A stretch of DNA of 64,000 bases from Lachnospiraceae bacterium (GTDB lineage: Bacteria > Bacillota > Clostridia > Lachnospirales > Lachnospiraceae), in assembly GCA_024682115.1 (NCBI GenBank), contig JAIKZO010000046.1, positions 1 through 64,000 on the forward strand. The letters are read 5' to 3'. The notes below the pieces were generated by a model, which saw nothing but the letters and a program-made list of their open reading frames with translations, had not been told where the DNA came from and ran no database searches. Positions 28,792 through 45,316 of this stretch are shown here, piece by piece. How positions within the stretch are numbered: the first letter of the stretch is position 1; the number at the start of each line of letters is the position of its first letter. The position numbers and the translations under genes were made by a program.

Positions 28792-30531
28792 GTGTATATA
28801 TTAAAGAAGGAGTTCTTTTACGTGAAAAAGTATATGAAAAAGGCGCTCTTTGCGCTTCTTCCGGCTTTTCTTGTAAGCTTTATGATATTCATCTTCGGGC
28901 CGGCGGAGATATTTTTTTCAAACAGTACGCAGTTTGAGTTCCTGTTCGGAGAGTTTATCCCCGAACTCATCCTTATCGGAGTCATCGTTTCGATCGTTGT
29001 CGCACTAATAGCAGGTGCGCTTCCGGATAAGGCACACAGTGTAGTTATCGCCGTGATAGGAGCCATAGCACTCGGCGGATATATCCAGGTCATGTTCCTC
29101 AATAAGAACCTTGATCTGCTGGGACTTAATCCCGACGGAGCGGCCATTCCGGTTTCGTCCATAGTGATCGGGATCATCGCGTGGGGGATCATCATCGCTG
29201 TTTTCGTGATCCTGGCTCTGAAAAAAGAAGACGTCATAAAAAAGCTCATCGCATTTCTTGCGATACTTCTTATCGGAATGCAGCTTACCGCGATGATAAG
29301 CCTTATCGCGGGTGCACCCGAGGACGCTTTTAAAAGACAGGAAGGCTCGTGGTTCTTATCTGGTAAGGATCAGTTCGCGATATCTTCTAAAGACAACGTG
29401 ATAATCCTCGTGCTCGACTTTTTCAGTAATCAGTATGTTGAGCCGGTCAATGCCAAATATCCGGGTTCATTTGATTTTTTACATGATTTCACTTATTATT
29501 CCAACGATGAGTGTGTATATTTCGGAACCTACCCTTCTTTGGCGCATATGATCACAGGGTGTGAACTCGACACTTCGCTCACCGTTAACGACTGGACTAA
29601 GAGCATCTGGGAAGATCAGAGGACGACGGAGTTTTTTGATCTCATAGAAAAAAGCGGATACCGTTTCAATTTCTTTACGCCCGAATCCGTATATGTAAGG
29701 GGCGATAACGACATCAGGATACTCGAGGGGATGATAGACAACCTCTCGAACGAAGCGACGAACATCGAAGCCGACCGCGGTGCGATCGTAAAAGTTATGA
29801 CAAAGATGTCATGTTACAGGTTTTTCCCCGATGTCATAAAGAACGTTTTTTACATTCAGAACAGTGAGTTCTCGGGTACGGTACAGAATTCCGATCACGG
29901 AAGGAAGCATACGAATTCCGAAACATACGCGGCGCTTAAGGAAGGCGGACTCTATATCGAGGACATGCCTTCGACGATCAACTTCATGCATCTTTCCGGT
30001 GCGCACGAATACAACAATGATGAGTTCTGTAACCCGAAGGATAATGCATCTTTGGAGGAGACCTGCAAGGGCTGTCTCGTGATGGTCGAAGAGTATCTGA
30101 ACCAGCTTAAGGCGCTCGGCAAGTACGACGATTCTACGATAATCATAACCTCTGACCACGGCGGAGAGTACGATCCGCAGGTCATCTTCTTTTATAAAAA
30201 ACCCGGTGAGACACATGATGTTTCACCCGTAAGTGCAGCTCCGGTATCGCATTGCGAACTGCAGTCAACGATCCTTAAAACGATCGGAGCCGAATATGCA
30301 TCATTCGGCAGCAGTATAGATGAGGTCGGAGAAAACGATGCGCGCGAGAGGATCTGCTACGTTAAGAAGATGGACCGCGATTATCCCGAAGTACCTTTCT
30401 TCGAAGGAGGGAAAGAGGGAAATCTGAACGTTTACTACGTATATCTATATACGGGTACATATGACGATCTGAGTAAAAAGATCGAAGAGGGGCCGGATGT
30501 CATAGCCCCGATGAAAGACAGTTTCTGGTAA
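28792..30531 (+). CDS. sulfatase/LTA-synthase-like membrane protein (alkaline phosphatase superfamily)
   Basis: N-terminal TM helices; VIILVLDFFSNQY, YFGTYPSLAHMITG (Thr nucleophile candidate), IIITSDHGGEYDP. Confidence 0.8.
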   Translation: MYILKKEFFYVKKYMKKALFALLPAFLVSFMIFIFGPAEIFFSNSTQFEFLFGEFIPELILIGVIVSIVVALIAGALPDKAHSVVIAVIGAIALGGYIQVMFLNKNLDLLGLNPDGAAIPVSSIVIGIIAWGIIIAVFVILALKKEDVIKKLIAFLAILLIGMQLTAMISLIAGAPEDAFKRQEGSWFLSGKDQFAISSKDNVIILVLDFFSNQYVEPVNAKYPGSFDFLHDFTYYSNDECVYFGTYPSLAHMITGCELDTSLTVNDWTKSIWEDQRTTEFFDLIEKSGYRFNFFTPESVYVRGDNDIRILEGMIDNLSNEATNIEADRGAIVKVMTKMSCYRFFPDVIKNVFYIQNSEFSGTVQNSDHGRKHTNSETYAALKEGGLYIEDMPSTINFMHLSGAHEYNNDEFCNPKDNASLEETCKGCLVMVEEYLNQLKALGKYDDSTIIITSDHGGEYDPQVIFFYKKPGETHDVSPVSAAPVSHCELQSTILKTIGAEYASFGSSIDEVGENDARERICYVKKMDRDYPEVPFFEGGKEGNLNVYYVYLYTGTYDDLSKKIEEGPDVIAPMKDSFW

Positions 30532-30558: not shown

Positions 30559-30834
30559 ATGAAAAAAGCACTTTTTTGGATCGCTAACTTTATGTTCTTT
30601 GTCATCGCAGGCAGTTACCTTACGATGATACCCGTAAGGGCCTACATAGACCCTTCGGCCGTAACGTATGTGATACAGGCCGTAGCGGGAGTCGTTATCG
30701 CAGTGGGCGCATGTCTTACGATATTCAGACATAAGATCGCGGAGTTCTTTAAAAAGAATAGGGAAGTCGAGAAGAAGGAAGTTCACTTCATCGACGAAGA
30801 AGAAAACAAAGAAAACGACGAAGTAACGGAATAA
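30559..30834 (+). CDS. small two-TM membrane protein
   Basis: 91 aa, two hydrophobic segments with AYIDPSAVTYVIQAVAGVVIAVGACLTIFRHK; acidic tail. Confidence 0.7.
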   Translation: MKKALFWIANFMFFVIAGSYLTMIPVRAYIDPSAVTYVIQAVAGVVIAVGACLTIFRHKIAEFFKKNREVEKKEVHFIDEEENKENDEVTE

Positions 30835-30852: not shown

Positions 30853-32748
30853 ATGATGGATCTTATCGGCAGACTGTTCGGACAGTTGCTTAACGCATGC
30901 TGCAACCTTACGGGCAATTTCGGATGGGGGATCTGGATCTTTACTTTTTTGACGAGGATCATCCTGCTCCCGGTTGCGATCATGGTACAGTTCAATTCAA
31001 TAAAGATGGTCAAACTCTACCCGGAGATGAACCGTTTCAAGGCAAAGTATTTCGGCGACAGGGACATGATATCCGAGGCCCAGTACGAGCTTTACAAGAG
31101 GGAAAAATACCATCCGGTGCTCGACCTTATCCCCGTTATAATCCAGCTCGTCTTACTCATGGGCGTGGTTGAAGGAATAAGGAAGCTCATGGATCACGGC
31201 ATCGATATGTCGTACTTCGGACTTGACCTTTCGAACGTGCCGATAAAAACGGGCGGTGCGGTACTTATAATTCCGCTGCTTGCAGCACTTTCTGCGCTCC
31301 TGATGTGCATAACGCAGAACATATCGAACGTCCTTCAGTCGGAGCAGAGCTTTGCGAACAAGGCGCTGACGCTTACGATCTCGGTCGGACTTTCGCTTTA
31401 CCTCGGACTTTTTGTCCCTGCGGGGATCGGCCTTTACTGGATCGCGGGAAACCTTTTGTCCATAGTCCAGATGTATGCGCTCAATTTCTTCATAAGCCCC
31501 AAAAAGCATGTCGATTACGAGGCACTCGAGGCAAGCCGCGCAGAGCTTAAAAAGGTCGAAGACGAGGCCGCCAAACAGAAAAAGTCACGTTCCAAAGAAG
31601 ATATCGCCAGGGAAAATGCCGATTACAGGCGCTTCCTTAAGGAAGGACGCAAGCAGATCGTCTTCTATTCCGAAAGGAACGGCTTTTACAAGTATTATAA
31701 GAACATCATAGAGTATATAAACAAAAAGACAGATATAGATATCCACTATATCACGAGCGATCCGAAGGACGAGGTCTTTGACATAAAGAGGGATCATTTC
31801 CATACATACTATGTCGGCGACAATAAGTTCATCGTTCTTATGATGAAGATAGAATCCGACATAATGGTGATGACGACGCCGGATCTTCAGAACTTCCAGC
31901 TGAAACGTTCGTACGTCGATAAGAACATAGAATACGTTTACGTTCCTCATGACGTTAACAGTTCAAACCTTACTTTCAGAAAGAACGCACTCGATCATTT
32001 CGATACGATCTTTACCTCGGGGCCGAGGAATATGGCCGAGATAAAAGAGCGCGAGGAAAAGGCCGGGTTAAAGAAAAAGAATCTCATAGAGTGGGGCTCG
32101 AGCGTTATCGATAACATGAAGAGCGCATATGAAAAGATAATGGAAGAAGAGGATGCTTCCGGTGCGGGTGCGAAAAAGCCCGTCATCCTGGTCGCTCCTT
32201 CATGGCAGAACGATAACATCATGGATTCATGCATCGAAGAGATCCTTGATGTGATCGATACGGAATACTTCGATGTGATCGTTCGTCCGCATCCCCAGTA
32301 TGTGAGGCATTTCGAGTCAAAGATCGATGCGCTCGCTTCAAAGTACGAAGGAAGACCGATCACCTTCCAGAAGGATTTTTCGTCAAACAAGACCGTATAT
32401 ACGGCGGATATGCTGATCACCGACTGGTCGAGCATCGCCTATGAATATGCATTTTCAACACTTAAGCCCGTACTCTTTATAAACACTCCGATGAAGATCG
32501 TGAATCCCGATTACAAAGAGCTTACGACGGTTCCCATTGATATCGAGGCCAGAGATAAGGTCGGCATTTCGCTTGAACTTTCCGATGTGCCGAAAGTCGA
32601 TGAGGCCGCAAAGAGGCTCATGAGCGAGGAACGTTTCACGAAGACCGAGATGGCACGGTTGCGCGACAGTTACATCTACAATGTCGGCAAGTCGGGCGAG
32701 ACGGGCGGAAAATATCTTATAAACAGGATCATAGAAAGGTCGAGATAA
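30853..32748 (+). CDS. YidC/Oxa1-like insertase domain fused to CDP-glycerol glycerophosphotransferase-like domain
   Basis: N-terminus IFTFLTRIILLPVAIMVQFNSIKMVKLYPEMNRFKAKY and PAGIGLYWIAGNLLSIVQMY (YidC); C-terminus YVPHDVNSSNLTFRKNALDHFDTIFTSGP, VRPHPQYVRHFESK, MLITDWSSIAYEYAF (TagB/TagF family). Confidence 0.85.
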   Translation: MMDLIGRLFGQLLNACCNLTGNFGWGIWIFTFLTRIILLPVAIMVQFNSIKMVKLYPEMNRFKAKYFGDRDMISEAQYELYKREKYHPVLDLIPVIIQLVLLMGVVEGIRKLMDHGIDMSYFGLDLSNVPIKTGGAVLIIPLLAALSALLMCITQNISNVLQSEQSFANKALTLTISVGLSLYLGLFVPAGIGLYWIAGNLLSIVQMYALNFFISPKKHVDYEALEASRAELKKVEDEAAKQKKSRSKEDIARENADYRRFLKEGRKQIVFYSERNGFYKYYKNIIEYINKKTDIDIHYITSDPKDEVFDIKRDHFHTYYVGDNKFIVLMMKIESDIMVMTTPDLQNFQLKRSYVDKNIEYVYVPHDVNSSNLTFRKNALDHFDTIFTSGPRNMAEIKEREEKAGLKKKNLIEWGSSVIDNMKSAYEKIMEEEDASGAGAKKPVILVAPSWQNDNIMDSCIEEILDVIDTEYFDVIVRPHPQYVRHFESKIDALASKYEGRPITFQKDFSSNKTVYTADMLITDWSSIAYEYAFSTLKPVLFINTPMKIVNPDYKELTTVPIDIEARDKVGISLELSDVPKVDEAAKRLMSEERFTKTEMARLRDSYIYNVGKSGETGGKYLINRIIERSR

Positions 32749-32749
32749 T

Positions 32750-33880
32750 ATGCAGATCAAAAGAAACATACTCTTAAATCCCGGTCCTTCGACCACAACG
32801 GATACGGTGAAGATGGCTCAGGTCGTTCCCGATATCTGTCCGAGGGAAAAAGAATTCGCATCGATGATGAAAGGCATCAGGCAGGATCTTGTAAAGATCG
32901 TGCACGGTAAGGAAGAGGATTATACTTCGGTCCTTTTTTGCGGTTCCGGAACGATAAACATCGATGTATGCCTTAACTCTCTGCTACCTGAGGGCAAAAA
33001 GATCCTCGTGGTCAATAACGGAGCATACAGCCAGAGAGCGGTCGAGATCTGTGAATATTACGGCATGCCCCATATAGACCTTCAGTTCCCCGTGAACGAA
33101 AGGCCGGATCTTGATAAGGTCGAAGCGACACTTAAGGAAAATCCCGACATTGCGCTCGTTCATACGACGCATAACGAGACCGGAACGGGTATCCTTAATC
33201 CGATCAGGGAGATCGGTGCGCTTGCGCATAAATACGGCGCGATATTTACGGTCGATACGACGTCGACCTACGCTATGAGACCCATAAATGTTTATGATGA
33301 CAATATCGATTTCTGTATGGCATCGGCCCAGAAGGGGATCATGGCCATGACGGGCCTTTCGTTCGTTATAGGAAGAGAAGATATCATCAAAAAGTCTAAG
33401 GATTATCCGAAGCGTTCTTATTACTGTAATCTTTATCTTCAGTATGAATTCTTCGAAAAGACCGGGGAGATGCACTTTACGCCGCCGGTTCAGACGATCT
33501 ACGCCGCAGTCCAGGGAATAAAGGAATATTTCGAGGAAGGTGAAGAAGGCAAGTGGGCAAGACATACAAGAGTTTTCAATGCGATCCACGATGGACTCGA
33601 TGAACTCGGATTCAAAGATGTCATTAAGCGTGAAGAGCAGGCCGGACTGGTCGTCAGCGTTATCTATCCCGATGATCAGAACTGGGATTTCATGAAGATA
33701 CATGATTACTGCTATGAAAGAGGGTTTACGATCTATCCCGGTAAGATATCAACGACCAATACCTTCAGACTTTGTGCGCTCGGCGCGATAGACGAAGAAG
33801 ATATAAGAGACTTTTTCAAGGTGTTCAGAGAAGCCCTTGATCATTACGGAGTAAAGGTTCCCGCAACATATAAGGAGTAA
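32750..33880 (+). CDS. phnW: 2-aminoethylphosphonate--pyruvate transaminase (biosynthetic)
   Basis: RNILLNPGPSTTTDTVKMAQVVPDICPREKEF; VDTTSTYAMRP; SAQKGIMAMTGLSFV (PLP Lys). Located directly before pepM. Confidence 0.85.
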   Translation: MQIKRNILLNPGPSTTTDTVKMAQVVPDICPREKEFASMMKGIRQDLVKIVHGKEEDYTSVLFCGSGTINIDVCLNSLLPEGKKILVVNNGAYSQRAVEICEYYGMPHIDLQFPVNERPDLDKVEATLKENPDIALVHTTHNETGTGILNPIREIGALAHKYGAIFTVDTTSTYAMRPINVYDDNIDFCMASAQKGIMAMTGLSFVIGREDIIKKSKDYPKRSYYCNLYLQYEFFEKTGEMHFTPPVQTIYAAVQGIKEYFEEGEEGKWARHTRVFNAIHDGLDELGFKDVIKREEQAGLVVSVIYPDDQNWDFMKIHDYCYERGFTIYPGKISTTNTFRLCALGAIDEEDIRDFFKVFREALDHYGVKVPATYKE

Positions 33881-33883
33881 AAA

Positions 33884-35179
33884 ATGGCTACTGTTTATAC
33901 CTGTTTTACGACCGACGTCATTCACGAAGGCCATCTTAACATTATCCATGAGGCAAAAAAGCTCGGCGATGTCGTTGTCGGTGTTCTTTCCGACGAGTCG
34001 ATGATAAGGTTCAACCGTTTTCCTTCTGTCGACTTCGAGACGAGGATAAAGATAGTTAAGGACATCCCCGAGGTTTCGAAGGTCGTCATCCAGGATGATA
34101 TCCATTATGACAAGGTTATAGAAGAACTTCATCCCGACTATGTCATCCACGGCGATAACTGGCTTGAGGGACCGATGAGAGCGATAAGGGATCGTGCCGA
34201 GAAACTGCTTTCCGCTTACGGCGGAAAGATAGTCGATGTTCCCTATACACGTAACGAGAACGTTATGATCACGGACTCAAGGATAAGGGAGCGCCTTGCG
34301 ATGCCCGAGTACCGCAGGAAAAGGCTGCGCCAGCTGATAGATCTCTGCCCTGTGGTAAAGACGATAGAGGTACACAGCGGACTTACAGGGCTTATAGCCG
34401 AAAAGACGATCGTTGAAAACGATGGCGAACTCGACCAGTTCGATGCGATGTGGATAAGCTCTCTTTGCGATTCGACCGCAAAAGGAAAACCCGATATCGA
34501 GCTTGTCGACATGACGAGCCGTTTCAGGACCATAGACGATGTTATGGAAGTTACGACGAAGCCGATAATCTTTGACGGCGATACGGGCGGACTTACGGAG
34601 CACTTTGTATACACGGTGCGCACTCTCGAGAGAATGGGCGTATCCGCGGTCATCATAGAGGATAAGACAGGTCTTAAGAAGAATTCGCTTTTCGGAACGG
34701 AGGTCGTTCAGACACAGGATACGATCGAGAACTTCTGCGAAAAGATCCGTTCGGGCAAAAAGGTCCAGCTTACCGATGATTTCATGATAATCGCGAGGAT
34801 CGAATCGCTCATTTTGGAACAGGGAATGGATGATGCCCTTACCCGTGCGAGAGCCTATGTTGAGGCAGGGGCTGACGGTATCATGATACATTCGCGTAAA
34901 AAGGATCCTGCGGAGATTCTGGAGTTCTGCGATAAGTTCAGGGCCGAAGATAAGGATACGCCGATTGTGGTAGTTCCCACTTCGTTCAATTCGATAACCG
35001 AATCGGAGCTTGCATCGCATGGTGTAAACATCGTTATCTATGCAAACCAGCTTACAAGGAGTGCTTTCCCGGCGATGGAGCAGACCGCAAAGGATATCCT
35101 CAAGCATCACAGAGCACTTGAAGTTGATGAAAGACTGATGCCGATAAAGCAGATAATCTCTTTGATAGACGAGTTATAA
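33884..35179 (+). CDS. pepM: TagD-like nucleotidyltransferase fused to phosphoenolpyruvate mutase
   Basis: N-terminal FTTDVIHEGHLNIIHEAK (HxGH) and VIHGDNW; C-terminal IFDGDTGG and IIEDKTGLKKNSLFG (EDKx5NS signature of PEP mutase). Confidence 0.93.
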   Translation: MATVYTCFTTDVIHEGHLNIIHEAKKLGDVVVGVLSDESMIRFNRFPSVDFETRIKIVKDIPEVSKVVIQDDIHYDKVIEELHPDYVIHGDNWLEGPMRAIRDRAEKLLSAYGGKIVDVPYTRNENVMITDSRIRERLAMPEYRRKRLRQLIDLCPVVKTIEVHSGLTGLIAEKTIVENDGELDQFDAMWISSLCDSTAKGKPDIELVDMTSRFRTIDDVMEVTTKPIIFDGDTGGLTEHFVYTVRTLERMGVSAVIIEDKTGLKKNSLFGTEVVQTQDTIENFCEKIRSGKKVQLTDDFMIIARIESLILEQGMDDALTRARAYVEAGADGIMIHSRKKDPAEILEFCDKFRAEDKDTPIVVVPTSFNSITESELASHGVNIVIYANQLTRSAFPAMEQTAKDILKHHRALEVDERLMPIKQIISLIDEL

Positions 35180-35235
35180 AGTAAGGATCATGCCCGCAGA
35201 ACGGGCAAATGGGGCTTTTCCCCGAAAGGAACGGA

Positions 35236-36357
35236 ATGGACGTTAAACAGTTTACCGAAATATTGGGAGCGGATTTTTATTCGGGAGTACCGGATTCCCA
35301 GCTTAAAGCGCTCTGCAACTATCTGATGGATAAGTACGGGACCGATCCGAAACATCACGTTATCGCAGCTAACGAAGGAAACTGCGTGGCACTCGGTGCG
35401 GGCTACCATCTTGCAACGGGCGCTGTTCCCGTTATCTATATGCAGAACAGCGGTGAAGGCAATATCATAAATCCGGTCGCATCGCTCCTTAACGATAACG
35501 TATACGGGATACCGATGATCTTTGTCGTCGGCTGGAGAGGCGAACCCGGGGTTCACGATGAACCCCAGCATGTCTATCAGGGAATGGTGACGGTAAAGCT
35601 CCTTGAAGACATGGATATCGAAAGCTTCATCATCGATAAGGAAACCGGCGTCGATGAGCTTAAGAAAGTGATGGAAGGCTTCAGATCAAAGCTTTCCGCA
35701 GGAAAGCAGGTGGCTTTTGTCGTCAGGAAGGGCGCTCTTTCAACGGACGTAAAGGTAGAATACAAAAACACTAACAGGATGCTCCGAGAGGAGATAATAG
35801 AGCATATAACGAAGTTCTCGGGCGAAGATCCGATCATTTCGACGACCGGCAAAGCAAGCCGTGAGCTTTTTGAGATAAGGGAAAGGAACGGCGAAGGCCA
35901 CGGAAAGGATTTCCTTACCGTAGGTTCGATGGGGCACAGCCTCTCGATCGCGCTCGGCGTTGCATTGAACAAGCCGGGTGTAAAAGTATGGTGCGTGGAC
36001 GGAGACGGAGCCACACTCATGCACATGGGTTCGCTTGCCGTTACCGGTAATATCTGCCCAGGAAACCTCGTTCATGTCGTTATAAACAACGGCGCACACG
36101 AGACGGTAGGCGGAATGCCCACGGTCGCTTCATCCGTTGATCTTTGTGCGGTTGCAAAGGGCTGCGGATACAGAAACGTAACTTCCGTAAGCGAACCCGA
36201 TTCGCTGGATAAGGCGCTTAAGGAAGCAAAGGAAGCTTCTTCGCTTTCGTTTATCGAGGTAAAATGCGCTATCGGCGCAAGGGACGATCTCGGACGTCCC
36301 ACAACGACCGCTGCGGAAAATAAAAAGAATTTTATGGATAACTTAAGGAAATATTAA
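35236..36357 (+). CDS. aepY: phosphonopyruvate decarboxylase (ThDP-dependent)
   Basis: YSGVPDSQLKALCNYL, AANEGNCVALGAGYHLATG, YMQNSGEGNIINPVASL, WCVDGDGATLMHMGSL. ATG 35236 preferred (AGGAACGG SD). Confidence 0.9.
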   Translation: MDVKQFTEILGADFYSGVPDSQLKALCNYLMDKYGTDPKHHVIAANEGNCVALGAGYHLATGAVPVIYMQNSGEGNIINPVASLLNDNVYGIPMIFVVGWRGEPGVHDEPQHVYQGMVTVKLLEDMDIESFIIDKETGVDELKKVMEGFRSKLSAGKQVAFVVRKGALSTDVKVEYKNTNRMLREEIIEHITKFSGEDPIISTTGKASRELFEIRERNGEGHGKDFLTVGSMGHSLSIALGVALNKPGVKVWCVDGDGATLMHMGSLAVTGNICPGNLVHVVINNGAHETVGGMPTVASSVDLCAVAKGCGYRNVTSVSEPDSLDKALKEAKEASSLSFIEVKCAIGARDDLGRPTTTAAENKKNFMDNLRKY

Positions 36358-36358
36358 G

Positions 36359-37069
36359 ATGTGCGAAATACAATATTGTAAAAGAGCGATCTTTATCGCG
36401 GCCGGATTCGGATCGAGAATGGTCCCCGTAACGGTCAATACACCCAAACCGCTTGTCAGGGTACACGGCAAAAGGATAATAGACGGACTCATAGATGCCT
36501 GCCTTAAGGCCGGTATCGAAGAGATAATAATAGTAAGGGGATATCTTAAGGAGCAGTTCGATCAGCTCCTTTATAAATATCCGATGATCAGATTCATCGA
36601 TAACCCTTATTTTGAGACCGCGAACAACATTTCTTCGGTCTATGTCGCAAGGGAATATCTTGAAAACGCCTATGTTTTCGAAGCCGATCTTCTGATATCG
36701 AATCCCGATATAATCTGCAAAGAGCATAAGGGATCGGATTTTCTTGCGATCAAAACTGACCATACGGATGACTGGTGCTTTGAGACAAAGGACGGGATAA
36801 TTACTGAGGAAAAGACGGGCGGTGACGACTGCTACCAGATGGTAGGTATCTCTTTCTGGAGCAAAGAAGACGGGGCGCGCCTTGCCAAGGATGTCGCTGA
36901 GGTCTTTGAGAGCGAAGAAGGCAGGAAACTCTACTGGGAACAGGTTCCTCTGGTCGTTAAAAAAGACGACTATTCCGTTGCGATAAAAGAATGCTCCTTT
37001 GACGATATCGTTGAGATAGATACCTTTGAAGAGCTTGCATCGATAGATGAGGCTTATAAGATAGGATAA
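36359..37069 (+). CDS. LicC/PntC-like nucleotidyltransferase
   Basis: IAAGFGSRMVPVTVNTPKPLVRVHGKRIIDGLI; FIDNPYFETANNISSVY typical of choline-phosphate/AEP cytidylyltransferases. Confidence 0.85.
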   Translation: MCEIQYCKRAIFIAAGFGSRMVPVTVNTPKPLVRVHGKRIIDGLIDACLKAGIEEIIIVRGYLKEQFDQLLYKYPMIRFIDNPYFETANNISSVYVAREYLENAYVFEADLLISNPDIICKEHKGSDFLAIKTDHTDDWCFETKDGIITEEKTGGDDCYQMVGISFWSKEDGARLAKDVAEVFESEEGRKLYWEQVPLVVKKDDYSVAIKECSFDDIVEIDTFEELASIDEAYKIG

Positions 37070-37090: not shown

Positions 37091-38155
37091 ATGAACAATA
37101 AAGAAAATAATCACGTACATAAAGTGTTTCAGATAGTGATCCTCGTCTTTGCGGTGATCGGAATGATCAGCGTGCTGGGACTCAGTGTCGTAGGCTTTTT
37201 TGCCGTGAAAAACTATGTACTCAATAAAGATTCGGGGAAGGTCGAGATCGCGGATGCGGAAGAAGAGACGGAAGTAAACGTTGAAGAGATCGAAGAGGAG
37301 ATCACACCAGAGAGTCCCGAAGCTGAAAAGTCGGTGATGGCGCCGATGTCGGAGCTTAAGGAGGCTGCTCTTCCCGAGACCGAGACCCAGAACCTCGAAG
37401 ACCAGATGGTCTATGAAGACGGAAAACTCACCATAACCTTTTTCGGAGACAGTATCCTCGATAACTTCAGGGATGAGACCGGAATAGCAAACAGGATGGC
37501 TTACGACCTGGACGCTACGGTATATAATCTTGCGATAGGAGGAACCTGCGCCACCCCGGAACCCGATGCGTATTTTGAGAATGACAGATGGAACTGCACC
37601 TGCGGACTCGGAATGGTCAAGGCTCTGGCCGGTGACATCAGCATAGATGTTCTGAGGGATTGTACCGCAACCCAGATACTTAGGGAACATATCGAGGAGA
37701 TCAGGAAGTCGGATATCTTCATCATAGAGTACGGTATCAATGATTTCCTTTCGGCAAAACCCATGGCGAGCGACGATTATCGTTCGGGGATGAGCACATA
37801 TGTCGGCGCGATGAGAGAAATGGTGAATATCCTTCGAACCAATTATCCTGAGGCAAAGATCATAATCTGCCAGCCTTCGTACATTTATTTCTACAGAGAT
37901 AACGGCGAGTTTATCGGCGATACTTACACATTGAACAACGGACCCGGATCGGAATTTGATTACGGCGGAAAGGCCGAGGTTGTCGCAAACGAGTACGGAA
38001 CGTATTTCTACAGCCTTGACAGACAGGGTATCGACTCATATAACAGCGACGAGATGCTTTTGGACGGTATACATCTGTCGGAGACCGGAAGATCGGTCTA
38101 CTCATCCAATCTCTCGGGGCTTATAAAGAGAAATATACTCGGCATCGAAGAATAA
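37091..38155 (+). CDS. membrane-anchored SGNH/GDSL hydrolase
   Basis: N-terminal TM; ITFFGDSILDNF, IIEYGINDF, DGIHLSETG. Confidence 0.8.
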   Translation: MNNKENNHVHKVFQIVILVFAVIGMISVLGLSVVGFFAVKNYVLNKDSGKVEIADAEEETEVNVEEIEEEITPESPEAEKSVMAPMSELKEAALPETETQNLEDQMVYEDGKLTITFFGDSILDNFRDETGIANRMAYDLDATVYNLAIGGTCATPEPDAYFENDRWNCTCGLGMVKALAGDISIDVLRDCTATQILREHIEEIRKSDIFIIEYGINDFLSAKPMASDDYRSGMSTYVGAMREMVNILRTNYPEAKIIICQPSYIYFYRDNGEFIGDTYTLNNGPGSEFDYGGKAEVVANEYGTYFYSLDRQGIDSYNSDEMLLDGIHLSETGRSVYSSNLSGLIKRNILGIEE

Positions 38156-38269: not shown

Positions 38270-40618
38270 ATGTTAAAACTAAGACCATATAAAAGGAACG
38301 ACGCTGAAAAAGTCGCTTCCTGGATCACATCCGAAAAAGAATTCTATGAATGGTCGGCAGGCAAGCTGGGAGATTATCCCGCTACTGCCGATACATTGAA
38401 CGCATTCAGCGAAAAGGTAGCCGAAGACGACTCCGTTTATCAGATGATCGCAGCTGACGATAACGAGGCCGTGGGTTACCTTATCCTTCGTTATCCCGAA
38501 GAAAACCAGAGACATATAAGGATAGGGTTTGTCGTACTCGATCCCGCAAGGCGTGGGCGCGGGTACGGCATCGGCATGGTCTCCCTTGCACTGAAGTATG
38601 CTTTTGGGATACTTAGGGCAAAGAGGGTCACTCTCGGTGTGTTCGAAAACAATGACATCGCCCGTAAGGCATATCGTACGGCCGGCTTCATCGAGACCGG
38701 AATGAACGAAAAATACGAGATCAACGGAAAGATCATGAACTGCATCGAGATGGAAGCCCGTTTTGAAGCAGGCTCAAAGAGTGTGGAAGAAAATATCGTT
38801 CCCGAGGATAAGATGATAAAAGACATCCTCACCGAGAACAAACTGTTTTATGCCTTCCAGCCCATAGTTGACACGTCTTCGGGTGAGATATTCGGATACG
38901 AAGCCCTTATGAGGGCAGATTACGGCACGAACGTATCTCCGATGGCAATACTTGATTATGCCACGAGAAAGCATAAATTATACGATATAGAAAAGCTCAC
39001 GCTCTTTAACGTTATGGAGATCTACGTTAATAAGCGCGAAGCATTTGCCGGGAAAAAGATCTTCATAAACAGTATCCCGGGGTATCAACTTAAAAAACAG
39101 GATTATTTCGATTTCAAGAAAAAGTACGAGGATTATCTTAATAACGTTGTAATGGAGATAACGGAAAATACCGAGTTCAAGGATAAGGAGCTTGGTTCTC
39201 TTCTCCAGAGAAGTGCAGATGACGGATTTGAGCTTGCGATCGACGATTACGGCACGGGCTATTCGAATACATCAAGCCTTTTGAGCTATCTTCCCAATTA
39301 TCTTAAGATAGACCGGTTGCTGATCTCCAATATCCATGAAGAAACAAAAAAACAGCATTTCGTAAGGGGCATCATAGAATTTGCCGCATCCAACGGAGTA
39401 AAGACGCTGGCTGAAGGCGTTGAGACCGCCGCGGAGCTCAAGACAGTCGTAGAGATGGGTGTCGATTACGTTCAGGGCTTTTATACGGCAAGGCCTTCAC
39501 TTGATATTGTCGAAAGCATAGACGAAGATATAAAGAATGAGATAATCACTTCTTCCGTCAAGGGTTCAAACCAGGAGATCCGCAAGATATATACGGTAGA
39601 GGACGAAGCGGAGCTTCCCGTTATGCGTCTTGCACTTGAAAAATATACGGGTATCCTGATCGGCCGGGAAGAGTTCACTCTGGTCGGAAACACCGGATAT
39701 TCAGCTGAAATGTCCATTAAGATAAAGGACGGTGTAAAGTGCCGTCTTACGATAAGAGATGTATTTGTTGAAAGTACACAGCAGCGTCCGTGTATAGAGA
39801 TAGGCACGGGAAGTGAGCTTACACTCGTAGTCGAAGGCGAGAACAGGATGACCAAATACGGTATCCTTGTCCCCGAAAGCAGCCGTCTTACGATTGAAGG
39901 CGACGGAAACCTTCAGCTCCGTTCACAGGGCATTTCAAGCTTTGCCTTAGGCAATTTCTGGGATGCCAAGGTCGGAGACATCAGATGGCAGGGTACGGGC
40001 GCACTGGATATCCTTGTTGAAGCCGATGAGGGAATAGGTATAGGCGGCGGAGAGTTCAGGGAAGGATGCGGAATAAGCCTTCTTTCCGGAATGGTAAGGA
40101 TAGAGCCCGCAAGCGGTAAGGCAATCGCGATAGGTGCGGTAAAGGGCGTTCCTCCGATCATCATTTCGGATTGTAAGCTTCAGCTCGACGTCAAGGTTGA
40201 AAAGGGTCTGGGTGTCGGATGCCTTGAAGGAACCCAGAATACGAGATTTCTTAATTCGAACATTAATATACTCTGTGCCGGAAATACGATATCGGCCATC
40301 GGTACGACGGAAGAATCCGACGGCAATATCAATATCGAAAGCAGTGAGGTATCGATCCTCGCTAACGGCGCAATGCTCTATCTTATTGGAGCCCAGGGCG
40401 GAAAACTGAACATCGGACTGCTTGATTCCGCGATCAACTTAAGGGGTGAGGGTAACAATGTTCTTGCTCTCGGAACGAGGGATCTGAACGCCGCGATAAG
40501 CGCAAAGCAGGCCATATGTAATATAAAGATCGCATCCGGTTCGCCGGTGGTATATGGCGCGAAGACCGAGAATACCGTTTTCTCGGGCGGATTACAGAGC
40601 GTCAGCGTAAATGAGTAG
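38270..40618 (+). CDS. GNAT acetyltransferase - EAL phosphodiesterase - beta-solenoid-like fusion protein
   Basis: GNAT: LDPARRGRGYGIGMVSLAL..LGVFENNDIARKAYRTAGF. EAL: YEALMR, ITENTEF, AIDDYGTGYSN, LKIDRLL, LAEGVET. C-terminal ~270 aa rich in short Gly/Ile/Val repeats. Confidence 0.85.
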   Translation: MLKLRPYKRNDAEKVASWITSEKEFYEWSAGKLGDYPATADTLNAFSEKVAEDDSVYQMIAADDNEAVGYLILRYPEENQRHIRIGFVVLDPARRGRGYGIGMVSLALKYAFGILRAKRVTLGVFENNDIARKAYRTAGFIETGMNEKYEINGKIMNCIEMEARFEAGSKSVEENIVPEDKMIKDILTENKLFYAFQPIVDTSSGEIFGYEALMRADYGTNVSPMAILDYATRKHKLYDIEKLTLFNVMEIYVNKREAFAGKKIFINSIPGYQLKKQDYFDFKKKYEDYLNNVVMEITENTEFKDKELGSLLQRSADDGFELAIDDYGTGYSNTSSLLSYLPNYLKIDRLLISNIHEETKKQHFVRGIIEFAASNGVKTLAEGVETAAELKTVVEMGVDYVQGFYTARPSLDIVESIDEDIKNEIITSSVKGSNQEIRKIYTVEDEAELPVMRLALEKYTGILIGREEFTLVGNTGYSAEMSIKIKDGVKCRLTIRDVFVESTQQRPCIEIGTGSELTLVVEGENRMTKYGILVPESSRLTIEGDGNLQLRSQGISSFALGNFWDAKVGDIRWQGTGALDILVEADEGIGIGGGEFREGCGISLLSGMVRIEPASGKAIAIGAVKGVPPIIISDCKLQLDVKVEKGLGVGCLEGTQNTRFLNSNINILCAGNTISAIGTTEESDGNINIESSEVSILANGAMLYLIGAQGGKLNIGLLDSAINLRGEGNNVLALGTRDLNAAISAKQAICNIKIASGSPVVYGAKTENTVFSGGLQSVSVNE

Positions 40619-41325: not shown

Positions 41326-42375
41326 CTAATCAATAAGGATCTCAGCTATTTTGGATGCGCCGGTGCCGTCGATGTACCCGCGCATCTTTTTGCTTATGAC
41401 CTCGCGCTCGGACGCCGGTTTTGAGGATATTCCGGCAACGATCGCAAGGATGTTATCCATCGTTTTTGCCGGATCTTCGGTAAGATCTCCTGCACAGGGG
41501 ATGATGCCGTCTTTTTCGAATTCATATACGCCGGCGCGCTGGTTTTCGGCGATGATATAGCTTACGGAAGGAATACCGAGGGCACAAAGCTCACCCAAAG
41601 TAGTCCCGCCGGCACATATCGCCATATCACACATCTTCATTACTGAGGCCACATCGCTGATACCCTCGTAAATATGTATATTATCGTTTTTGCTTTCAAG
41701 TTCTTTAAGCTCGTCGTAATTTTTGTTAAGACGGCTTGTAAGGATCCGGAAATCGTGATCTTTTATGTTTTTGCAAAGGGCTGTACAGACACCGAAAGGA
41801 TCGATACCGCCGCTTGAAATGAAAATACCGGATACTCTTTCTCTTATGGGAGCGGGAGAATCCGAAAACTGGCTTCTTAAGGGCGTGAACTTCTTTCCGA
41901 GGAGTTTTTCCGGAACTGACATATATGACGCAGGCTCACTGACAGTACTGTAATTGATAATGACATCAACGTCATATTTTTCGAGAGACTGCAGATCATC
42001 AAGGTAAACCAGCTTTATTCCGACCTTTTCGGTATGCCGGTGAAGTACGGTAAAGAAGTTTTCGTCAACGGCATAGGAATCTATAAGAAGAGAGGTTGTA
42101 TTCAATTGACTGATACAGTCAAAAAGCATGTCCGCCTCATCCTTCAGCTTTTCGTGATCTGAATTCAAAACACGTATCGGGAATTCGTCTTTTTCATCAA
42201 AGCGTTCTTCAAGTATTTCCTTACTTTTTTCGTCGGAAACGATGAAAAATACTTCTCTTTGCGATATAATCGAATTTGTAACAGCCCTTACGGCACGGGC
42301 GATACTGAGACAGCGCTGGATATGTCCGGTAGCAATCTTATCGTTTCCGTCCGTTCTTATGCATACGGTTTTCAT
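41326..42375 (-). CDS. PseG/SpsG-like nucleotide-sugar hydrolase/glycosyltransferase
   Basis: MKTVCIRTDGNDKIATGHIQRCLSIARAV; IFISSGGIDPFG; MAICAGGTTLGELCALGIPSVSYI. Internal ATG 42375 preferred. Confidence 0.75.
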   Translation of the reverse strand: MKTVCIRTDGNDKIATGHIQRCLSIARAVRAVTNSIISQREVFFIVSDEKSKEILEERFDEKDEFPIRVLNSDHEKLKDEADMLFDCISQLNTTSLLIDSYAVDENFFTVLHRHTEKVGIKLVYLDDLQSLEKYDVDVIINYSTVSEPASYMSVPEKLLGKKFTPLRSQFSDSPAPIRERVSGIFISSGGIDPFGVCTALCKNIKDHDFRILTSRLNKNYDELKELESKNDNIHIYEGISDVASVMKMCDMAICAGGTTLGELCALGIPSVSYIIAENQRAGVYEFEKDGIIPCAGDLTEDPAKTMDNILAIVAGISSKPASEREVISKKMRGYIDGTGASKIAEILID

Positions 42376-42433
42376 GGCTAAATCATAGCACAAGACGGGG
42401 CTATTATCAAAGAATACGATCCGGGGAATTTTG

Positions 42434-45316
42434 ATGTACAATTTTTTATTGGTCATACAACTTATCAGCCTTGTTGTACTGTTCGGTGAGGGTCTGTATG
42501 TATTCTTTCACCTTAATTCAAGGATGCACAGCTTCCTTTTCCTTTATCTTATAGCGAACATCGCCAACCAGGCCGGATATCTTTTCGAGATGACGGCAAA
42601 GACATCGGAGGAAGCTTATCTTGCGACCAGGCTGCTCTATCTCGGAAAGGTTTTCATACCGATCGGTATGATCATTTTTATACTGCATTTTTGCAGGATC
42701 AATATCCCGCAGTGGCTGAGTGCCCTGCTGATTTCGCTCCATGCCCTTATGTGGATGGTCATCGCGACCAACGATTATCATCATCTTTTCTATTCGACGA
42801 TCACTTTCGTTAATTCGGGCATGTTCCCGCATAATTCATACGGACACGGGCCCCTTTACTTCATTTATCAGGCAACTTCTCCCATATATGCGATCATAGA
42901 TATCGTATTTGCGATCAAATTAAGGAAGGAATTCCAAAGGAATGAGACTAAGCGGCACTTCCTCATATTCATTCTCGCACCGCTCCTTCCGCTCATCGGA
43001 TTTGTATTTTTCCTGTTCGGGGTCACGAACGGATACGATACGACGAACCTGGGCTTCTTCCTTGCTTCGATCCTTCTTATGTGCGCGTTTTTCAGGTTCG
43101 ACCTTATCGATACCGAGGATATGTTCCGGAACAGGGTAATAGACAGCCTGAACGACGGTATCCTTGCTACGGGATATAACGGGAAACTCGTATATTACAA
43201 CAACAGGGCCAGAGGGCTGTTCCCCGGAATGCTCGTAGCCGGAAAGACCGATGAGAACAGCGGTATCATAAAGGATCTTCGGAACAAGGCCGAAAGGAAA
43301 GAAAGGATAAAGATCGGGGACTGTGTTTACGGCATCGTCGTAAAGGAAGTCGTAAGGGACGATCTTTTTACCGGGCGGCTTTATATCCTTGATGACGTGA
43401 CCGACTCGGTGAAATACACAAAACAGCTTGAGGAAGAAAAGGAAAGAGCGAATGCGGCAAACGAGGCTAAATCGAGGTTCCTTTCGAACATGTCTCACGA
43501 GATAAGGACCCCGATGAATGCGATCGTCGGAATGACGGATATCATCCTTCGCGACGAACTGCCCGATTCGGACAAGGAATATCTTGAAAACATCAGGAAT
43601 TCCGGTAATGCGCTCATCGATATAATCAACGACATCCTCGACTTTTCAAAGATCGAATCGGGTCGTATGGAGATCATGGAATCGCCTTATGAGCCTTTGA
43701 CACTGGTCAACGATCTTAAGATGATCTTTATCACGAGGATCGGAGATAAGCCGCTGAGGCTCAATTATGATATCGATTATAAGCTTCCCGCCAGACTCAT
43801 GGGCGATCAGGTAAGGATCAGACAGATAATCATAAACCTCGTAAACAACGCGATAAAGTTTACGGAGGTCGGCTATGTCAGGCTCAAGGTAAGTGCCGAC
43901 AGGGTTTCGGATGATGAGATAAAACTCAATATTTCCGTAAAAGACAGCGGACTCGGTATCCGGGAAGAGGATATGGAGCGCCTGTTCGATTCCTTTACTC
44001 AGGTGGATTCGATAAAGAATCATTCAAAGGAAGGTACGGGACTCGGACTTACGATCACGAAGCAGCTCGTCGAACTCATGGGAGGCAAGATCTCCGTCGA
44101 ATCCGCTTACGGGAGCGGATCGGAGTTCTTTGTTACCATACCCCAGAAGATCGTTGACGAGACTCCGGCTACGGAATTCAACTATCAGAAGGAAGACAAG
44201 GAAAACGTTCACTTTATCGCCCCTGAAGCGGAGATCCTTGTGGCCGAAGATAATGAGATCAATGTCAAGGTGATCATGGGGCTTCTCGAGCCGCTTAAGA
44301 TGAATATAGATGTTGCCGAAAACGGTCTTACCGCATTGAGGAAGATCACAGACAGGAAGTACGATCTCGTTTTGATGGATCATATGATGCCGGTCATGGA
44401 CGGACTTGAAGCGACCTCGAAGATAAGAGAGCGCGGAGGCGAGTATTACGAGAAATTACCGATCATCGCACTTACGGCCAATGCCGTGCAGGGAGCAAGG
44501 GAAGAGCTGCTTTCTGCCGGGATGAACGACTATGTGATGAAACCGGTCGATATAGACGAGCTTAAATACAAGATAAGGAAATGGCTGCCTGCCGATCTTG
44601 TCATCGATGTAAGTCCCGAAGAATACGCTGCTGCAGCTTCGGATGATGCTTATGCGGGGACTTTGGCCGGAACGGACTCCGGGAATAAAGACAACGAAAG
44701 AACGGGAGCACCTGAGCGCGACCTGGGAGAAAAGGAATCCGATTACGGTTATCTTGACCGCGAGATAGGACTTAAGCATTGCGGGTCTGAATCCCTTTAT
44801 AATGAGGTATTAAGGGACTTCTACAAGCTCATAGACAACAAAGCGGGCAGGATAGAGGCTCTTTATAACGAAAACAATCTGGATGAATATACCATAGAAG
44901 TTCATGCGTTAAAGAGCGTGGCCAGAATGGTCGGTGCCGAGTACCTTTCCGGGCTGGCACTTGAGCTCGAGATGGCCGGAAAAGAAGAGAACAGGGCGCT
45001 CATAGACGAAAAGACGCCGGAACTTCTCGACAGGTACAGAGCGTACAAGCAGACGCTTTCGTATTTCGATGCCGAAGATAATACCGATAAGAGCGAAGTT
45101 TCAAAAGATGAGATAATAGAAAAACTGAACGCGATGAAGGAAGCCGCATCAACCTTCGATATAGATACCGTCGATGAGATGATGGAAGTGATAAACGGAT
45201 TTAAGATGCCTGACGAAGAACTCGAAGGCATGATAAAGGATCTGGATGCGCTTGTAAGGGATGTTTCCTACGATGATGTAACCCGTTCAGTCGACGAAAT
45301 CATATCGAAGCTTTAA
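42434..45316 (+). CDS. 7TM hybrid histidine kinase with receiver and C-terminal HPt-like domain
   Basis: Seven hydrophobic segments; MSHEIRTPMNAIVGMTDI, GTGLGLTITKQL, DLVLMDHMMPVMDG, EVHALKSVARMVGA (HPt His). Confidence 0.9.
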   Translation: MYNFLLVIQLISLVVLFGEGLYVFFHLNSRMHSFLFLYLIANIANQAGYLFEMTAKTSEEAYLATRLLYLGKVFIPIGMIIFILHFCRINIPQWLSALLISLHALMWMVIATNDYHHLFYSTITFVNSGMFPHNSYGHGPLYFIYQATSPIYAIIDIVFAIKLRKEFQRNETKRHFLIFILAPLLPLIGFVFFLFGVTNGYDTTNLGFFLASILLMCAFFRFDLIDTEDMFRNRVIDSLNDGILATGYNGKLVYYNNRARGLFPGMLVAGKTDENSGIIKDLRNKAERKERIKIGDCVYGIVVKEVVRDDLFTGRLYILDDVTDSVKYTKQLEEEKERANAANEAKSRFLSNMSHEIRTPMNAIVGMTDIILRDELPDSDKEYLENIRNSGNALIDIINDILDFSKIESGRMEIMESPYEPLTLVNDLKMIFITRIGDKPLRLNYDIDYKLPARLMGDQVRIRQIIINLVNNAIKFTEVGYVRLKVSADRVSDDEIKLNISVKDSGLGIREEDMERLFDSFTQVDSIKNHSKEGTGLGLTITKQLVELMGGKISVESAYGSGSEFFVTIPQKIVDETPATEFNYQKEDKENVHFIAPEAEILVAEDNEINVKVIMGLLEPLKMNIDVAENGLTALRKITDRKYDLVLMDHMMPVMDGLEATSKIRERGGEYYEKLPIIALTANAVQGAREELLSAGMNDYVMKPVDIDELKYKIRKWLPADLVIDVSPEEYAAAASDDAYAGTLAGTDSGNKDNERTGAPERDLGEKESDYGYLDREIGLKHCGSESLYNEVLRDFYKLIDNKAGRIEALYNENNLDEYTIEVHALKSVARMVGAEYLSGLALELEMAGKEENRALIDEKTPELLDRYRAYKQTLSYFDAEDNTDKSEVSKDEIIEKLNAMKEAASTFDIDTVDEMMEVINGFKMPDEELEGMIKDLDALVRDVSYDDVTRSVDEIISKL

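Follow-up and report, generated by a model that had tools for sequence, protein, structure and literature searches.

Why should a domain of the YidC/Oxa1 insertase family be joined in one polypeptide to a TagF-like transferase, and what would such a protein do among genes for the synthesis and activation of 2-aminoethylphosphonate (AEP)? The question is raised by a gene in a 64,000-nucleotide stretch of Lachnospiraceae DNA (hereafter the window), whose features are collected in Table 1. Judging from domain content and gene context, we consider it fairly probable that the fusion sits in the membrane and transfers phospho- or phosphono-amine head groups from their CMP-activated form, and that it would act with two proteins encoded upstream of it: a small membrane protein with a YIDP motif and a membrane phosphotransferase of the alkaline-phosphatase superfamily (SULF). 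For brevity, the modules are denoted Y (YidC), G (TagF-like transferase), S (alkaline-phosphatase-superfamily membrane phosphotransferase) and M (small YIDP membrane protein).

Table 1. Features in and around the fusion gene (positions refer to the window)
Feature	Position	Strand	Evidence
SULF, membrane alkaline-phosphatase-superfamily phosphotransferase (LtaS-like)	28792..30531	+	weak PF00884, alignment, LtaS profile match
M (MEM91), small 91-aa membrane protein, YIDPSAVTY motif	30559..30834	+	beside fusion in 37/40 other loci
YidC-GTB fusion protein, 631 aa	30853..32748	+	ORF, Pfam/NCBIfam profiles, AlphaFold2/Foldseek; same fusion in 41 genomes
YidC/Oxa1 (60KD_IMP) domain, aa 23-211	30919..31485	+	Pfam, residue table, PDB alignment
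Charged helical linker, about aa 212-264	31486..31644	+	gap between two Pfam matches
PF04464 (TagF-like GT-B) match, aa 265-543	31645..32481	+	Pfam, motifs, TagF fold
2-aminoethylphosphonate transaminase (PhnW/AEPT)	32750..33880	+	TIGR03301 463.9 bits, cut-off 360.8
Cytidylyltransferase-like domain fused to PEP mutase (PepM)	33884..35179	+	TIGR02320 419.6 bits, PF01467 51.7 bits
Phosphonopyruvate decarboxylase (Ppd)	35209..36357	+	TIGR03297 465.8 bits
LicC/PntC-like cytidylyltransferase	36359..37069	+	1jyk (LicC) E 4.7e-29, 6pd1 (PntC) E 8.1e-12
GDSL hydrolase, N-terminal TM (operon membership unsure)	37091..38155	+	PF00657

The initial annotation had described a single open frame with a YidC-type N-terminus and a TagB/TagF-like C-terminus, and its description holds: the frame is uninterrupted over 631 codons, and the protein exceeds the cut-offs of PF02096 (60KD_IMP; E 5.5e-29, 101.7 bits against 35), TIGR03592 (yidC_oxa1_cterm; 88.3 against 84.3) and PF04464 (Glyphos_transf; E 3.3e-12, 46.5 bits against 22.1). 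In the full-length AlphaFold2 model (mean pLDDT 86.6, pTM 0.61, the mutual placement of the two halves being its less sure part), Foldseek aligns the N-terminal half with BhYidC (3wo6/3wo7), at a TM by target of 0.70-0.76 and an rmsd of about 3.2, and the C-terminal half with TagF (3l7j-m, with 3l7m/3l7j as the top group), as well as with the TagF-like capsule polymerases 8qoy and 8a0c. The linker is predicted to form helices at residues 222-243 and 248-263. The arginine singled out earlier in the first transmembrane segment (TM1) is R35, the counterpart in the PDB alignment of the conserved arginine of E. coli YidC, and H366 (PHD), R478-P-H480-P and D524-W-S526 are invariant in the GTB domain of 33 fusions.

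That the fusion is a product of an assembly join or a frameshift has a negligible probability: the window genome is assembled in 178 contigs and shows 4.8% contamination, but the same full-length Y-G fusion was found in 41 genomes (relatives, 30 further genome records and G603), including Lachnospiraceae bacterium G11 (L062), a record without MAG label and apparently an isolate, so that the architecture is independent of metagenome bins. Among 399 genomes spread over the phylum, only G603 and the window genome carried it, and within this sample the Y-G fusion seems restricted to the order of the window. A search of open-access papers returned nothing relevant on YidC-PF04464 or YidC-LtaS fusions.

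The AEPT gene begins 2 bases past the stop codon of the fusion gene, and the genes from AEPT to the LicC/PntC-like cytidylyltransferase are separated by gaps of 1 to 29 bases. The GDSL hydrolase gene is possibly the last of the operon; a homologue closes the cluster in locus L033. In alignment, SULF has the invariants D209, T246, H405 and D455-H456-G457, i.e. a Thr nucleophile and a D...H...DH ligand pattern. The 91-aa protein had no match in Pfam or NCBIfam and, with its homologues, constitutes a family without an entry in either, conserved beside these transferases. Further along the window, a 782-aa frame (38270-40618) appears by eye to encode three parts in succession, namely a GNAT acetyltransferase, an EAL domain and, at the C-terminus, a repeat-like region, and a PseG-like UDP-sugar hydrolase (41326-42456, minus strand; TIGR03590 over cut-off) points to pseudaminic-acid-type glycosylation nearby.

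The linkage is not peculiar to the window. Among 40 other fusion loci, the 91-aa protein was a neighbour in 37, a LicC-like cytidylyltransferase (NTPt) in 30, PepM in 25 and SULF in 21, counts that are minimum values wherever a contig stops short and that include related, hence non-independent, genomes. Considering that the genomes (2-4 Mb) hold only 5-11 NTP_transf_3 genes each, chance linkage of one to the fusion is roughly 5%. Profile searches located PepM anywhere in the genome in 16 of 23 fusion genomes, as against 23 of 195 relatives overall; among the relatives it was enriched in fusion carriers (5/11, versus 18/184 of the others; one-sided Fisher p 0.004, uncorrected for kinship). The AEP-operon context proposed from the window is thus well supported by the linkage to PepM and cytidylyltransferases. 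Neither of these two genes lay near the fusion in five loci (L050, L052, L054, L055 and L061).

Seven carriers lack PepM, and in six of them another cytidylyltransferase adjoins the fusion. In two of these loci (L071, L072) its neighbours are a LicA resembling choline kinases, a LicC-like cytidylyltransferase and a BCCT transporter; two others (L064, L066) have, near the Y-G fusion, a protein combining a cytidylyltransferase with a class I/II PLP domain, which in L066 is closest to threonine-phosphate-decarboxylase-like proteins (CobD type), and these NTPt-PLP proteins would fit a supply of CDP-ethanolamine. An NTPt together with a class V aminotransferase is found in L069, and an NTPt in L067. 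Conversely, locus L126 (genome G581, which has a single YidC) holds an AEP operon in which the same kind of GTB transferase stands unfused. Taken with the replacement contexts, this suggests that the transferase, and not the YidC part, is the AEP-linked element.

Several domain fusions in these loci are worth recording in their own right. A Radical SAM-cytidylyltransferase protein (L070:9897-11324, minus strand) lies between PepM and the YidC fusion and may perform a tailoring step before activation. A protein that combines a LicC-like cytidylyltransferase with an iron-type alcohol dehydrogenase (L090:9258-10967) adjoins PepM and Ppd and suggests CMP-hydroxyethylphosphonate. The cytidylyltransferase-class I/II PLP fusions (L064:5214-7076, L066:4488-6296, L086:3269-5074) are candidate one-protein sources of CDP-ethanolamine.

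Enzymes of PF04464 have been characterised with CDP-glycerol or CDP-ribitol, and both the family match and the TagF fold would suit a conventional CDP-glycerol polymerase or primase (TagB/TagF) with a YidC domain as an incidental addition. We regard this as improbable, and CDP-glycerol as a disfavoured donor: TagD (TIGR01518) stayed below cut-off in 20 of 21 carriers, exceeding it in one, and was not found above it in the window genome (87% complete, so that absences there are soft), and the contexts are those of AEP, choline or probable ethanolamine activation. LicD (PF04991) was likewise not found anywhere in the window genome, at that same completeness, and was absent from 11 of 21 carriers; in the other ten it is present elsewhere in the genome and could act as the AEP transferase instead. 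The window genome has no PF04464 protein besides the fusion, and the same is true of the L071 and L072 genomes, in which no LicD was detected. Hence, the LicC/PntC-like enzyme in the AEP operon, the lic-type and CobD-type replacement contexts, the lack of TagD and LicD and the lone PF04464 protein make CMP-AEP the most likely donor of the window fusion, in keeping with the alternative to CDP-glycerol that the initial annotation had put forward.

In related loci the four modules recur in exchanged combinations. Besides Y-G, we observed Y-S fusions (L085:7828-10548, L086:6340-9126, L087:7414-9777, L131:5269-8016 and L136:1722-4472), called by Pfam in L085, L086, L131 and L136; in L087 Pfam identified the YidC part and a profile the SULF part. 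In the predicted Y-S structure the YidC part is weak (mean pLDDT 62) and the alkaline-phosphatase-type part alone matched known folds; the Y assignment in these proteins rests on Pfam and sequence profiles. The TM1 groove position of the Y-S proteins is Asn or Gln, not Arg. In the Y-S genomes the neighbouring transferase bears an N-terminal YIDPGTGSM segment (M-G fusions; L084-L088, L131, L132), which is likened to the 91-aa protein by its YIDP motif and the TM stretch that follows, not by a profile match, and in L128 a YIDP protein joined to SULF (M-S) adjoins a Y-G protein. The reshuffled fusions again have PepM, NTPt or choline genes as neighbours (L085, L132/L136, L131). Since partners are exchanged among the four kinds of fusion, their parts presumably act together, which points to one membrane system in which a group would be loaded inside and passed outward. 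The initial annotation is well supported as regards the fusion, its AEP context and CMP-AEP as a plausible donor, and it missed this wider system of SULF, the 91-aa protein and the Y-S, M-G and M-S fusions.

What, then, is the contribution of the YidC bundle? It may be an anchor, a docking site or a lipid relay, much as the initial annotation had proposed that it anchors, docks or flips substrate. It does not serve as the sole YidC of the cell, a reading ruled out by a second copy in the canonical dnaA/rnpA/yidD/yidC/jag/mnmE locus of the window genome (contig C63), where the fusion is not situated; a second YidC was also present in each of eleven further carriers checked. The idea, voiced at the outset, that the bundle is something other than the cell's insertase agrees with these copies. 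The fused domains of the Y-G proteins form one clade apart from the housekeeping copies (support 100), and those of the Y-S proteins also form one clade (support 100); an AU test did not reject a joint Y-G and Y-S clade (p 0.24, or p 0.52 with L020). L020 (genome G102) itself carries a YidC of Gram-negative type that has a periplasmic domain; although its genome was binned into the family of the window, L020 is probably contamination.

A specialised insertase, dedicated to the operon partners (the YIDP protein or SULF), would be consistent with the retained five-helix insertase fold and with the small membrane protein that so regularly adjoins the fusion. It is nevertheless unlikely in view of the housekeeping YidC in each carrier checked and of the M-G loci, where the transferase itself contains the YIDP segment.

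LtaS and MCR-1/EptA-type proteins, relatives of SULF, use lipid donors, and YidC modules are joined both to a cytosolic loader (Y-G) and to an outward-facing phosphotransferase (Y-S). Moreover, E. coli YidC and further insertases of the Oxa1 type act as lipid scramblases in vitro once purified (PMC10491306). The bundle might accordingly be a dedicated lipid scramblase or relay, with the GTB domain loading a lipid inside, the bundle passing it and SULF using it outside; however, SULF was not seen near 19 of the 40 fusions, scrambling in vitro seems to be a general side activity of insertases, and no lipid intermediate is known. We therefore hold the relay as a doubtful reading of the bundle, and its extension, a four-module trans-envelope machine, as similarly speculative. 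In that machine the TagF-like domain would charge a lipid with AEP, choline or ethanolamine phosphate taken from the CMP or CDP form, the YidC groove would convey the charged lipid across, and an LtaS/EptA-like partner would set the group on a surface polymer.

Somewhat more credible, though still short of an even chance, is that the bundle is a mere membrane anchor replacing the amphipathic surface of TagB/TagF-type enzymes. Joining a ready-made five-helix bundle would be an easy route to membrane attachment, and the AEP operon of L126 has the transferase without a dedicated YidC. An anchor would, however, require neither the conservation of particular residues nor the joining of a YidC-type domain to SULF. 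Across 34 fusions there is little or no variation at the polar groove positions (R/K35, Q155, W196) or at those of the cytosolic hairpin (N48-S49-I50, P57, Q98), position 35 being R or K in all 34 (R in 6, K in 28). Several of these invariants differ from the housekeeping YidCs; N48-S49-I50, Q155 and S181 are specific to the fusions, and the Y-W..N motif of YidC is retained.

The reading that we favour, a membrane-bound head-group transferase working with the YIDP protein and SULF, would run as follows. PepM, Ppd and PhnW (families assigned by profile) would make AEP, and the LicC/PntC-like enzyme, a family member by profile whose product is predicted from LicC and PntC, would activate it to CMP-AEP. 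The cytosolic TagF-like domain would then transfer the AEP group of CMP-AEP to an acceptor at the inner leaflet, a location suggested by the membrane fusion and by the precedent of TagB/TagF. The YidC bundle would be a co-opted paralogue, with fold and polar groove kept, that keeps the GTB domain membrane-bound and presents the acceptor. Fusion, YIDP membrane protein and outward-facing SULF may constitute one unit handing the group to a surface polymer; the fusions and operons link these parts, the handover itself is conjectural, and the LtaS-like residues of SULF suggest the onward transfer. In relatives the fusion would serve CDP-choline or probably CDP-ethanolamine pathways, which is LicD's job elsewhere.

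LicD-like phosphotransferases have been noted in Pnt clusters (Rice et al. 2019, PMC6697681). The fusion resembles the LicD (PF04991) of lic/Pnt clusters in its presumed job and in its neighbours (LicA, LicC and a choline transporter in L071/L072, LicC/PntC and AEP genes in AEP loci), but it belongs to another family (PF04464) and is joined to YidC. It shares fold and motifs of its C-terminal domain with TagB, TagF and TarL, from which it differs by the five-TM YidC bundle in front and by a donor that is most likely CMP-AEP or CDP-choline. With SpoIIIJ and BhYidC2 it has in common the five-TM fold, the TM1 Arg/Lys, the cytosolic hairpin and the YW..N motif, whereas it is a second YidC copy with invariants of its own and an enzyme in place of the C-terminal tail. 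SULF shares with LtaS and EptA/MCR-type transferases the Thr nucleophile, the metal-ligand pattern and a membrane N-terminus, yet its sequence identity to them is very low and in relatives it is fused to YidC or a YIDP segment. The window operon unites PepM, Ppd, AEPT and a LicC-like cytidylyltransferase, as does the PntC CMP-AEP pathway of Treponema denticola and Atopobium rimae, whose later tailoring steps have been described as unknown (PMC6697681); it differs in offering a candidate for a later step. Both domains and the type of pathway (Pnt and lic surface decoration) are known; the fusion, the TagF-type enzyme in LicD's place and the four-module web did not turn up in the open-access papers searched.

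The coupling of AEP to bacterial surfaces has been an open step in Pnt pathways as to its enzyme (PMC6697681), and the fusion provides a testable candidate. This candidate is found in many gut Lachnospiraceae, and related cases exist for choline and probably ethanolamine, which allows a single enzyme family to be examined with several donors. The fusions are natural cases of a YidC fold tied to an enzyme instead of to protein insertion, and bear on lipid scrambling by Oxa1-type folds in the cell; should the bundle be a lipid relay, YidC would have gained a non-insertase function in evolution.
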